From positions 62,001 to 126,000 of the forward strand of contig CANRNJ010000002.1 of assembly GCA_947631955.1 (NCBI GenBank): a DNA stretch of 64,000 nt, read 5' to 3'. The first letter of the stretch is position 1, and each line of letters starts with the position of its first letter. A program made the position numbers and the translations under genes. Positions 57,145 to 60,920 of this stretch are shown one piece after another. The notes under the pieces are model-generated. The model was not told the origin of the DNA, ran no database searches, and saw only the letters and a program-made list of their open reading frames with translations. Source of the DNA: an uncultured Lachnospiraceae bacterium. Its GTDB lineage: Bacteria > Bacillota > Clostridia > Lachnospirales > Lachnospiraceae.

Positions 57145-57336
57145 CTATACCGCTGCGATCTGATTCATCAGTTCATCCACATCAATACCGTGCACCATTG
57201 CCGCTTCCTCAAGCGTTTCTCCCTGAGCGGAAGGGCATCCCAGACAGTGCATACCGATCCCCATCAGTACGGGTGCGATATCCGGATTCACATTCAACGC
57301 TTCACCGATCGTCATATTCTTCGTAATATCTGCCAT
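57145..57336 (-). CDS. DUF1858 domain protein (63 aa)
   Basis: 63 residues of the DUF1858/ScdA-N type: [20 protein letters not shown] then [18 protein letters not shown]. The conserved Cys-x-x-Cys with the hydrophobic lead-in suggests a redox or metal-linked role, as in hybrid-cluster and ScdA-related proteins; the partner is unknown. RBS GGAGG precedes the ATG. A single small gene next to the mecA terminator. Confidence 0.88.
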
Positions 57337-57806
57337 GTTTGTATACCTCCATCAATGTTTCTCTGTTTCTGTTCCGGCAGCTTGTCTGAACCGCCGGCAG
57401 TTTCAGGCTGTTTCTTATTGTTGCCCTGCGCATACGATTTATGCCTATACAGTATAAGCCATAACCGGCATTTTCGCAAGTTTTATCTTATCAGGCACAG
57501 ACTTCCCGTTTCCGGATCCAGCCGTATCGTAACCGAATCCGCGGCATACCGGTAGTCATTCTCGCTGAACTAACCATTTAAAAGTCTACTTTGCCGGGGC
57601 TGCTCCGCATCCATTTTGTTCCCTCATACATTTTTCACAATTTTTTTATAAAAAAAACGTGTTTTGTATGCGAAAAAGTACAAAGGCTGTCTTGACTCAT
57701 GTGCCGGATTTAACATATAATATGTGTACTGAATGAGTATGTTTTGCGGCATTTTATAAAAATGTCACAAGACGATCAAAATAATTTATAATAGGAGGCT
57801 TTCAAA
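57337..57806. other. Intergenic region DUF1858/pfl
   Basis: The pfl promoter and 5' leader occupy 57692-57806. The first half, 57337-57600, shows no gene with start and ribosome site; one 24-codon open stretch on the minus strand near 57480-57570 looks coding but lacks a start. No other feature seen. Confidence 0.5.
57692..57721 (+). promoter_or_regulatory. Promoter of the split pfl operon
   Basis: TTGACT (57692-57697), 18-bp spacer, TATAAT (57716-57721), giving a leader of about 80 bases with a GGAGG ribosome site. Confidence 0.75.
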
Positions 57807-59846
57807 ATGAGACCAGAATGGAAAGATTTTGTAGGCGGCAAGTGGGACAAAGAAGTCAATGTCCGTGACTTCATCCAGAGAAACTACCATCCGTACGATG
57901 GCGACGAGTCCTTCCTTGCAGGACCTACGCAGAACACTAAGGACTTATGGGCACAGGTTCTTGACCTGCAGAAACAGGAACGTGAAGCAGGCGGCGTACT
58001 GGATATGGATACCAAAGTCGTATCCACGATCACATCCCATGGTCCGGGTTATCTTGACAAGAGCAAAGAGAAGATCGTAGGTTTCCAGACAGATAAGCCT
58101 TTCAAGCGTTCCTTACAGCCTTACGGCGGTATCAGAATGGCAGAGAAAGCTTGTTCCGACAACGGTTACGAGGTAGATCCTGAGATCAGCGAGTTCTTCT
58201 CCACACACAGAAAGACGCACAATGCAGGATGTTTCGACGCATACAATCAGGAAATGAGAGCATGCCGTTCTTCCCACATCATCACGGGTCTTCCGGATGC
58301 ATACGGACGCGGACGTATCATCGGCGACTACAGACGTGTCGCTCTGTACGGTATCGACAGACTGATCGAGGACAAACAGGATCAGAAAGATTCCACAGGA
58401 CGTGTTATGACAGACGATGTGATCCGTCTGCGTGAAGAGATCTCCGAGCAGATGACAGCCTTAAAGCTGATGAAAGAGATGGCTGCTTCTTACGGCTGCG
58501 ATATCTCCAAGCCCGCATCCAATGTACAGGAAGCTATTCAGGCTACTTACTTCGGATATCTGTGCGCGGTTAAAGAGCAGAACGGTGCGGCTATGTCCCT
58601 TGGACGTACATCCACTTTCCTTGATATCTATGCAGAGAGAGATCTGGCAAACGGCACCTTCACCGAGGAAGAGATCCAAGAGTTCGTTGACCACTTCATC
58701 ATGAAGTTAAGATGTGTTAAATTTGCGCGTACACCTGAGTACAACCAGATCTTCGCAGGCGATCCGGTATGGGTAACAGAGTCCCTTGGCGGCGTAGGCG
58801 TAGACGGACGTCCGATGGTAACAAAAATGAGCTTCCGTTATCTGCACACACTGGAGAACCTTGGTCCTTCTCCGGAGCCGAACCTGACAGTTCTCTGGTC
58901 CACAAGACTTCCTGAGAACTGGAAGAGATACTGCGCGAAGATGTCCATCCAGACTTCTTCCATCCAGTACGAGAACGACGACCTTATGAGAGCGGTCCAC
59001 GGCGACGATTATGCGATCGCCTGCTGCGTATCTTCCATGGTTGTCGGTAAAGAGATGCAGTTCTTCGGCGCGCGTGCTAACCTTGCTAAATGTCTGCTGT
59101 ACGCATTGAACGGCGGCGTAGACGAAGTTACCAAGAAGCAGGTTGGTCCTAAATATCGTCCTGTTGTCGGTGACGTTCTTGACTACGACGATGTTATGGA
59201 TAAATTCATCGACATGATGGAATGGCAGGCTGACGTATATGTAAACACGCTGAACATCATTCACTATATGCATGACAAATACTGCTATGAGAGAGCGGAA
59301 ATGGCTCTTCATGACAGAGATGTAAAACGTTACTTCGCAACGGGTGTTGCAGGTCTTTCCATCGTGGCTGACTCCCTTTCCGCTATCAAGTACGCTAAGG
59401 TTGAGCCGATCAGAGATGAAGACGGCGTGATCGTTGACTTCAAGACCACCGGCGAATTCCCGAAATACGGTAACGATGATGATCGTGTAGATGAGATCGC
59501 ACAGATGATCGTTCACAAGTTCATGACGGCAGTCAGAAGACATCACACCTACAGAAACGGTATCCCGACCACATCCATCCTTACCATTACTTCCAACGTA
59601 ACTTACGGTAAGGCTACAGGCAATACACCTGACGGACGTAAGAAAGGACAGCCGTTTGCTCCGGGCGCTAACCCGATGCACGGACGTGACACCCACGGTG
59701 CAGTCGCTTCTCTGTCTTCCGTATCCAAGCTTCCGTTCAACGATGCACAGGATGGTATCTCCAATACCTTCACCATCATTCCGGGCGCTCTTGGAAAAGA
59801 AGATCAGGTATTTGCAGGCGACATCGAGATAGATCTGAACAAATAA
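57807..59846 (+). CDS. Pyruvate formate-lyase, catalytic chain without glycyl-radical domain
   Basis: 679 residues covering the PFL domain, including the active-site pair C406-C407 in [12 protein letters not shown]. The usual PFL (about 750-760 residues) continues after NALGKDDEV with a radical domain ending RVSGYAV; this protein stops soon after [20 protein letters not shown] and lacks that domain. The reading frame closes cleanly with hairpins after it, so it is not a simple frameshift. Pyruvate plus CoA would give acetyl-CoA plus formate only if a separate radical subunit docks: the 80-aa gene at 60399 is the candidate. No activating enzyme (pflA) is in the window. RBS GGAGG; strong promoter upstream. 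Confidence 0.9.
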
Positions 59847-59850
59847 AAAT

Positions 59851-59922
59851 GATTTCCCGGCGGAAGGGAAATGACTCCGCCGGGAAATCGGAAAAAAATC
59901 CATATATGAAAGATTTTTTTCC
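59851..59922 (+). promoter_or_regulatory. Two consecutive perfect hairpins after the pfl catalytic gene
   Basis: Hairpin 1: 14-bp perfect stem, 59851-59864 with 59876-59889. Hairpin 2: 11-bp perfect stem, 59890-59900 with 59912-59922, whose 3' arm contains seven T. They start four bases after the stop codon. They could attenuate transcription or protect the upstream message. Confidence 0.75.
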
Positions 59923-59955
59923 AGATATAGATATATTGAAGGAGGGAAAGAATAT

Positions 59956-60159
59956 ATGGATAACAAGCAGATGATCGACGATTTTGTCAAGATGATGGAT
60001 TCCGGTATGACGCAGGGCGTCGGACATGTGAATGTAGATGTCGACGACAAATCCGATGATGCCAAAAACGTACAGACCATGGGGTGTACGGATTGCTCCA
60101 GAACCCCGTTGGCGTGCAGCGTACCGACTCTCCATGAGGGTCTGGACGACTTTAAATAG
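59956..60159 (+). CDS. 67-aa three-Cys protein related to the front of the glycyl-radical domain
   Basis: Residues 5-30 (QMIDDFVKMMDSGMTQGVGH, then NVDV) align with the start of the radical-domain protein downstream ([20 protein letters not shown], then NVNV), sharing D, V, T, G, H, N and V positions. The rest diverges: the RVSGYAV radical loop is gone and a MGCTDCSRTPLAC tail (C44, C47, C54) takes its place. I know no named family for it. It has its own GGAGGG ribosome site and sits between the two PFL parts, so a role in assembling, protecting or regulating the radical enzyme is the natural guess. Confidence 0.65.
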   Translation: MDNKQMIDDFVKMMDSGMTQGVGHVNVDVDDKSDDAKNVQTMGCTDCSRTPLACSVPTLHEGLDDFK

Positions 60160-60371
60160 CATCGAGCCGTGCGGATTTAGGACGCGACAGCTTTCGGGAG
60201 CTTGCTCACGAAGAGATGGAGCGGCATAAATCCATAGGGCGACAGCCCGTAAATGAGCAAGCGGAAGCTGCGAAGCAGCGTGCTTGCGAGTGTAACGGCA
60301 CGATGCGTTATACGAACAAGCCAAGGCTGCGAAGCAGCGTGCTTGTGGGTGTAACGGCACGATGCAGTTAA
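60159..60371 (+). repeat. Structured repeat element with tandem covarying hairpins
   Basis: Two imperfect direct copies, 60255-60310 and 60314-60370, three bases apart. Each folds into a hairpin: RCAAGC, an inner GCTGC-GAA-GCAGC, then GCTTGY. Copy 1 has GCAAGC/GCTTGC and copy 2 ACAAGC/GCTTGT, a compensatory G-C to A-T change that supports selection on RNA structure. Upstream, GCTTGCTCA (60200-60208) competes for TGAGCAAGC (60254-60262), and GCATCG (60159-60164) can pair with CGATGC of either copy (60301-60306 or 60360-60365). Confidence 0.7.
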
Positions 60372-60398
60372 ATATAATATAATAAGGAGGATTTTATT

Positions 60399-60641
60399 AT
60401 GGCAGCAGCAAAAGCTCAGGTAGATAACTTAGTTTCTTTATTAGATGGCTACGCAACAAAAGGCGGACATCACCTTAACGTAAACGTTCTCAACAGAGAT
60501 ACCTTACTGGACGCCCAGAAGCATCCTGAGAACTATCCTCAGTTGACGATCCGTGTATCCGGCTACGCAGTAAACTTCATCAAACTGACTCCGGAACAGC
60601 AGGCAGACGTTATTTCCCGTACTTTCCATGAGTCCATCTGA
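60399..60641 (+). CDS. Autonomous glycyl-radical subunit (GrcA/YfiD-like, 80 aa)
   Basis: 80 residues equal to the C-terminal domain of pyruvate formate-lyase: [35 protein letters not shown] with the radical glycine at G55, and [18 protein letters not shown]. It matches GrcA/YfiD, which in E. coli replaces an oxygen-cleaved PFL domain; here it is probably the regular radical subunit because the large gene lacks one. RBS AAGGAGG precedes the ATG. It follows the structured repeat element, has its own terminator, and may be made in different amounts from the catalytic chain. Confidence 0.92.
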
Positions 60642-60692
60642 TCGATGGCTTAGGGCGGAAAACGTCTGAACAAAACCAGTCAAAATAACAGG

Positions 60693-60725
60693 AAAGCGGT
60701 GCGAAAAACTAAGCACCGCTTTTTT
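60693..60725 (+). terminator. Terminator of the pfl locus
   Basis: AAAGCGGTGC (60693-60702) pairs with GCACCGCTTT (60713-60722), followed by more T. It lies about 50 bp after the radical-subunit gene. Confidence 0.88.
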
Positions 60726-60920
60726 GTTTATGTGTAAAACTTTTATCATATTTAACCACCGCTTTTACAATGCTTTATTCTTTACTTTGCCGCAGCGTCT
60801 TTTTTTGATTGCTGCATTGTAATTGGATCGGTGCTATTCATTATTAATACCGTGAAATATTATATTGGAAACGTTTTACTTAATTCCGCCACTTAGAGCA
60901 CTTAAAAATCTGAAATTAAA

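Follow-up and report, generated by a model that had tools for sequence, protein, structure and literature searches.

Many anaerobes rely on pyruvate formate-lyase (PFL) as a central enzyme of fermentation, and oxygen destroys it at its radical glycine. The present analysis concerns a PFL locus in a stretch of 64,000 nucleotides (hereafter the window) from an uncultured Lachnospiraceae bacterium (NCBI GenBank assembly GCA_947631955.1, contig CANRNJ010000002.1, positions 62,001 to 126,000 of the forward strand). Three open reading frames (ORFs) follow one another at this locus and encode a PFL chain of 679 amino acids (aa) that ends before the radical loop, a 67-aa protein and GrcA3, a separate glycyl-radical subunit of 80 aa. 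A first-pass annotation of the window had described a PFL split into a catalytic chain and a radical subunit, and the three ORFs, the active-site cysteine pair C406-C407 and the radical glycine G55 all lie where it had placed them. The 67-aa ORF, which it had named only within the gene order, is by sequence comparison a conserved third component. The features of the locus, in window coordinates, are as follows.

57692..57721, + strand: promoter-like site TTGACT-18-TATAAT upstream of the PFL gene, 11/12 consensus (a consensus match only)
57807..59846, + strand: PFL catalytic chain, 679 aa, ending before the radical loop (ORF, TIGR01255)
59022..59027, + strand: codons for the active-site cysteine pair C406-C407
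59851..59889, + strand: strong RNA hairpin following the PFL stop and preceding the 67-aa gene, without a T-run on the + strand (-28.3 kcal/mol, z -5.8)
59956..60159, + strand: 67-aa protein with a radical-domain-like N-half and a cysteine tail (C44, C47, C54), without a radical loop
60160..60398, + strand: 239-bp spacer separating the 67-aa gene from GrcA3, containing two near-identical repeats
60399..60641, + strand: GrcA3, separate glycyl-radical subunit, 80 aa (ORF, NF038360)
60561..60563, + strand: codon for the predicted radical glycine G55 (RVSGYAV)
60687..60728, + strand: hairpin with a T-run, likely terminator of the PFL-67aa-GrcA3 unit (-24.1 kcal/mol, z -5.8)

The 679-aa chain scores above the equivalog cut-off of TIGR01255 (1103.2 vs 994.2 bits, model positions 2-665 of 744), and its match is without the glycyl-radical loop, which is carried by the 80-aa chain; the latter exceeds the cut-off of the NCBIfam model NF038360 'GrcA3' (161.4 vs 158). 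That the small chain supplies the missing radical domain, as the first-pass annotation had claimed, is borne out by the complementary matches of the two chains to E. coli PFL (1h16), residues 10-681 corresponding to the 679-aa chain and residues 682-758 to the 80-aa chain. The break falls within the Pfam Gly_radical model (positions 1-51 on the PFL, 50-106 on the 80-aa chain), and the distance from the PFL stop to the start of the 80-aa gene, given earlier as about 550 bp, measures 552 bp. The active-site pair C406-C407 is kept in all 138 of the 138 aligned PFL cores.

The genome of this organism (3.11 Mb in 25 contigs, 96% complete) was found to contain one PFL. A full-length PFL, which would have spoken against the earlier annotation, was not found in these contigs, and matches to Gly_radical were confined to the present locus and one ORF on C6, which is NrdD. 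A pflA gene scoring above cut-off lies at C2:129003-129761, 3 kb past the window end, in keeping with its reported absence from the window. By these searches, the 80-aa GrcA3 is the sole radical donor of PFL type that the genome was found to encode.

The distribution of the split was examined in other genomes. The GrcA3 model was matched in 253 of the 299 genomes of the family and over its cut-off in 101. Nearly all of the 136 regions, from 114 genomes (own included), were taken around listed GrcA3 matches in short frames; L123 and L203, one place fetched twice, were counted once. A PFL frame without the radical loop was present upstream of GrcA3 within the fetched region in 110 of the 114 genomes, with pflA lying between the two genes at L075 and L098. 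The remaining four comprise G235 and G282, with a truncated PFL near GrcA3 that the script had missed, and G022 and G128, with PFL pieces only. Among 80 loci of a named collection that have the 67-aa protein, 79 have the truncated PFL, 78 have GrcA3 and 77 have both. When 30 genomes were re-searched, a PFL over cut-off was found in 26, partial matches only in three and none in one; in none of those 26 did the PFL match run on through the radical domain. The 67-aa protein was detected at E <= 1e-8 in 10 of 391 genomes drawn from the class, four of which lie outside the family (in three other families); all four of these have the truncated PFL and GrcA3 alongside. The split is thus not a matter of chance, since the same arrangement recurs in other genomes; the 679/67/80-aa gene order extends to other genera, which excludes the frame error that would have undone the earlier annotation. 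A changed order (PFL, GrcA3, 67-aa gene) was observed at L345 (G445), where the 67-aa profile match contains a TGA.

A second GrcA3, not adjoining a PFL in the fetched region, occurs in 20 of the 110 genomes, one of them (G097, L204) at a contig edge. Among the 24 GrcA3 copies without an upstream PFL, the neighbour is a CRP-type regulator in four cases, rubrerythrin in one and superoxide reductase in another (L079, L141, L146, L164, L152, L159); four (L097, L147, L172, L204) adjoin pflA and the rest are beside other genes. The copies beside oxygen-defence genes or CRP-type regulators fit the idea of replacement after damage. At six PFL-unlinked GrcA3 copies from several genera (L109, L133, L136, L138, L148, L171) the same type of ORF stands upstream on the opposite strand, presumably a relative of the sporulation protein SpoIIIAA.

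The 67-aa protein has 2392 relatives at E <= 0.001; among the matches listed (120 of 2392), the named ones are all called 'hypothetical protein'. Most of the named relatives of the protein carry the label Lachnospiraceae. None of 39 members of the family gave a match in Pfam, NCBIfam has no model for the protein as such and yielded weak matches only, and a PDB search with the family profile produced nothing convincing (best E 0.69). However weak, the matches to the GrcA3 model (24 of 39 members at E <= 0.01, best 8.6e-7) run through the N-half (hhalign 96% probability, 30 columns). The N-half of the protein, as judged from these alignments, resembles the start of the radical domain, and the C-half is a cysteine tail in place of the radical loop, which was seen in none of 70 copies. 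The 67-aa genes at the loci were counted by a hidden Markov model scan, a strict regular expression having given only 53. A strand motif G-[HRY]-x-[NSH] is present in 70 of the 70 copies and the pattern C-x(3-8)-[AP]-C-x(1-2)-P in 68; C54, P57, D15 and G23 are invariant among the 39 members, and C47 is conserved in at least 90%. The possibility that the ORF is mere filler was ruled out by the 2392 relatives together with a median ratio of nonsynonymous to synonymous substitution rates (dN/dS) of 0.094.

Related small proteins were also encountered. The 67-aa profile gave additional short matches elsewhere in nine genomes (L217-L225), and all nine carry a second unnamed, conserved small protein or domain with a similar helix-plus-strand N-half and the tail YHHGRCD[VI]GSP (9/9 loci), the genes standing in unrelated surroundings among the listed neighbours. 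Two of these proteins belong to no Pfam family and no credible NCBIfam family, and one YHHGRCDVGSP protein, used as query against the own genome, gave no match. In the own genome, the third 67-aa-profile match (E 6.6e-5), at C9:42186-42308 (L227), falls in a frame of 99 aa that starts similarly and has a different tail. The putative docking module of the 67-aa family may be reused for another partner.

Comparison of the 110 loci revealed an either-or pattern between the 67-aa gene and cysteines at the end of the PFL chain. The 67-aa gene is present at 70 loci, none of which has a cysteine in the PFL tail, and is absent from 36, all of which have two (26 loci) or three (10 loci) cysteines in the PFL tail. 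Four loci have neither; in two of these genomes (G297, G002), and also in G282, the 67-aa gene is found elsewhere in the genome. Among 30 full-length PFL chains, 29 are without a cysteine between the core and the radical domain, the exception being L063 (G096), a 774-aa frame in which PFL, cysteine tail and GrcA3 are fused in one chain. The tail is missing in six of the seven re-fused chains. The cysteine element, to judge from this distribution, is a companion of the detached radical subunit, because of the 70/36 exclusion and the six of seven re-fused chains without a tail.

A phylogeny of 67 of the 138 PFL cores inferred with IQ-TREE placed the split PFLs in one clade (ultrafast bootstrap, UFBoot, 100), with six re-fused PFLs nested inside it under a further node of support 100; several inner nodes were weak, and in a FastTree analysis of all 138 cores the support of the split node was only 0.13. 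The split is, on the IQ-TREE topology, of single origin, and two natural re-fusions are likely, the second of which (L063) rests on a low-support placement because of the weak inner nodes. The fused and split states need three changes on the PFL-core tree. The two split layouts, counted on 134 cores (the 138 minus four tips with neither element), need 13 changes vs at least 25 in 500 shuffles, and the layout is therefore inherited yet switches often. None of the six re-fused chains has a cysteine tail, and the 67-aa profile found no match in four of their six genomes; in G252 there is a short match on the radical domain and in G175 a weak match (6.6e-5), its place not listed.

The median dN/dS is 0.037 for the PFL, 0.094 for the 67-aa protein (284 pairs with dS 0.1-1.2) and 0.059 for GrcA3, low values which indicate that all three are under purifying selection. 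Thus, the lineage-wide conservation, the low dN/dS and the fact that no full-length PFL was detected in this genome uphold the earlier suggestion that the enzyme is two-chain by design and not degenerate. Residues that stand out in the PFL of the split lineage are 398 H, 410 S, 99 F, 119 N, 644 F and 244 I; they mark the lineage and not the split, since five of these residues are retained wholly or mostly in the six re-fused chains. C153 is present in 84 of 109 split chains and C493 in 80 of 109, both being rare or absent in 23 ordinary fused chains; the six re-fused chains keep C153 in six and C493 in two.

The PFL gene, the 67-aa gene and GrcA3 likely form one transcription unit, as a promoter-like site precedes the PFL and a T-run hairpin follows GrcA3. 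A GGAGG-type Shine-Dalgarno-like sequence lies directly upstream of each of the three ORFs. Promoter-like consensus matches number eight in the window, vs 4.9 (standard deviation 2.7) in shuffles of it. The terminator hairpin comes from the folding calculation and was not listed by a hairpin scan with a loop limit of 8. The hairpin behind the PFL stop may set the ratio of the PFL to the two small proteins; in 30 of 79 relatives the 60 nt after the PFL stop fold to <= -15 kcal/mol, a count without a shuffled control. The 239-bp spacer exceeds all 53 corresponding gaps measured in relatives (largest 196), and a 110-bp piece of the spacer has a single occurrence in the genome. Divergent from the PFL, a 63-aa ORF lies at 57145-57336 on the minus strand, which we take to resemble a DUF1858-type small cysteine protein.

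The arrangement resembles the E. coli pair of PflB and YfiD/GrcA in having a catalytic chain with the equivalent of C418-C419, a separate protein with the RVSGYA loop, and PflA. It differs in that E. coli has a full-length PFL with GrcA serving it after damage, whereas the searches here turned up no PFL chain carrying a radical loop; for the spare-part role of GrcA/YfiD, which serves a full-length PFL of its own cell, no counterpart was found in this genome. GrcA3 is shorter than YfiD (80 vs 127 aa) and a third small protein is present. The present PFL ends about where the artificial E. coli construct tPFL ends. The 80-aa protein is a member of NCBIfam NF038360 over its curated cut-off, the model spanning the small radical part. 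The closest solved relatives of the 679-aa chain, closer than E. coli PFL, are the PDB entries 38la (687 aa) and 38lb (739 aa), both 'Formate acetyltransferase'. Their matches reach the end of the core or come close to it, neither belongs to the 34 sequences matched by the radical subunit, and both probably lack the radical domain too; 38lb has two cysteines just before its last ~36 residues, which lay outside the alignment seen. Neither entry was among the rows from the structural library (to 8 April 2026; Foldseek, VIA-align, P0282 model), and neither a paper nor a partner chain came to light for them.

In benzylsuccinate synthase (BSS) the radical glycine stays on the large chain, and four cysteines are needed for an iron-sulphur cluster. 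The present system is similar to the BSS type in its small extra subunit acting on radical handling, and unlike it in that the radical loop is on a small chain and the 67-aa protein has three cysteines, too few for a cluster, as are the two or three of the PFL tails. BSS-type small subunits bind [4Fe-4S], and BSS beta is an accessory subunit promoting thiyl radical formation, according to the abstract of PMC12590467, a precedent for control of thiyl radical formation by a small subunit.

The interpretation preferred here, to which a probability of roughly 0.75 is assigned, is that the 679-aa chain and GrcA3 assemble into one PFL and that the 67-aa protein likely docks in the same slot, guarding the catalytic cysteines. 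The two chains would have to assemble, since the 679-aa chain is without the radical loop and GrcA3 carries it. A precedent comes from E. coli, where PFL cut after residue 695 and combined with a shortened YfiD had normal turnover once activated (PMC8683613). PflA would install the radical on G55 while GrcA3 is bound to the PFL chain, and the radical would then move from G55 to C406-C407; a short-distance radical transfer from GrcA to C419 is supported in the passages seen of PMC12338860. GrcA3 cut by oxygen would depart and a fresh copy would take its place. The 67-aa protein would dock in the radical slot via its radical-domain-like half, its cysteine tail guarding the catalytic cysteines whenever GrcA3 is away.

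The region equivalent to residues 696-733 of E. coli PFL, proposed as a recognition element and needed for YfiD binding in the account given in parts of PMC8683613, is missing from this PFL. It is replaced by a tethered tail or by a radical-domain-like protein with a similar tail, which suggests that the cysteine element acts at the vacated slot. The element may be a stand-in, covering the open active site or quenching it, a role proposed tentatively and at somewhat under even odds, because it accompanies the separate radical subunit and vanishes in the re-fused clade, and because it sits either on the PFL C-terminus, where it is tethered and needs no docking half, or on a protein with a docking half. 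The fullest version, a three-part enzyme made up of a catalytic chain, an exchangeable radical subunit and a radical-less domain copy that would plug the slot in between while its cysteine tail caps or quenches the thiyl site, is slightly more doubtful still.

Several observations weigh against the assembly and guarding of the enzyme as proposed. In the passages available of PMC8683613, the E. coli PFL cut after residue 695 showed poor activation with the shortened YfiD, and E. coli tPFL showed no measurable YfiD binding and 32-fold less radical, so that assembly is not automatic. At least six split-PFL genomes also have a full-length PFL (G085, G119, G132, G265, G284, G296), and the split enzyme therefore need not be the main PFL everywhere; a sole radical donor, as suggested earlier, holds for this genome but not for every genome of the family. 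L075 and L201 (genomes G130, G288) have neither element and no strong match elsewhere in the genome, two of the 70 copies of the 67-aa protein (L088, L183) end after the first two cysteines, and the re-fused chain L063 keeps its cysteine tail. No PFL cysteine is singled out as a partner of the tail, since the re-fused chains retain C153 and partly C493. The docking of the 67-aa protein is backed by no structure: its AlphaFold2 model is poor (pLDDT 55; helix 3-19 only), and that of the tail-bearing PFL P0282 is worse (pLDDT 49.9, 32 aligned sequences).

The 67-aa protein or the PFL cysteine tail may instead recruit GrcA3 or PflA, standing in for residues 696-733, which is a serious possibility at rather less than even odds. 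The alignment of the N-half with the start of the radical domain (hhalign and the 24 of 39 GrcA3 matches), the need for residues 696-733 in YfiD binding reported in the parts seen of PMC8683613, and the loss of the element in the re-fused clade, where recruitment is unneeded, would all agree with such a role. However, this segment is already present in GrcA3, with which a second copy would compete for the slot; the well-conserved cysteine tail is without a counterpart in 696-733; and the tail-only layout manages without the radical-like half. The guarding role is slightly favoured over recruitment, and the data do not separate the two. Binding of a metal or iron-sulphur centre by the cysteine element, as an accessory redox subunit of the kind seen in BSS, is unlikely. 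The two to three conserved cysteines and the promotion of thiyl radical formation by BSS beta in the abstract of PMC12590467 speak for it, but only C47 and C54 are near-invariant and two cysteines are all that 26 of 36 tails contain, which falls short of a four-cysteine cluster within a single chain, and the family profile shows no similarity to solved structures in the PDB.

A role of GrcA3 as an ordinary spare part of a full-length PFL damaged by oxygen, the 679-aa gene having decayed, is very improbable. The NCBI family name denotes an autonomous glycyl radical cofactor, a second GrcA3 exists in 20 genomes (in a few cases with rubrerythrin, superoxide reductase or a CRP-type regulator as its neighbour), and a full-length PFL is also present in at least six genomes of the family; against this, no full-length PFL was found in this genome or among the 30 re-searched genomes (26 truncated, three partial, one without a match), the PFL has a dN/dS of 0.037 and the truncation is common to 110 genomes. 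Both the spare-part-only and the degenerate-locus explanations are contradicted unless a full-length PFL sits in the missing 4% of the genome. A sequencing or assembly error that split one gene has a negligible chance, as no point in its support was found, both other genes occur on 77 of 80 named contigs with the 67-aa protein and in the four genomes of three other families, and 552 bp with a conserved gene separate the two ORFs. Overall, the first-pass reading is partly supported.

The split itself is probably known already to annotators and crystallographers (NCBIfam; PDB 38la/38lb), and structural work on the arrangement seems to be under way. No paper on a split PFL, GrcA3 or the 67-aa protein was found in open-licence PMC titles and abstracts, a search outside which lay subscription journals and most preprints, and a split PFL is unmentioned in the passages seen of PMC9326890, PMC5476646, PMC11528403 and PMC13252398. 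Within the literature searched, the 67-aa protein, its exchange with the PFL tail and its absence after re-fusion were found nowhere.

A radical glycine on a replaceable 80-aa chain together with a conserved cysteine element amounts to a natural experiment on the loading, shielding and exchange of the radical, and the artificial E. coli system of tPFL and YfiD is apparently used in nature. The L063 fusion is useful as a structural template. The finding points to a function for the unnamed 67-aa family with its 2392 relatives; if the proposed role is true, the plug would add a new type of guard for radical enzymes, present as a separate protein or as a PFL tail and discarded after re-fusion.

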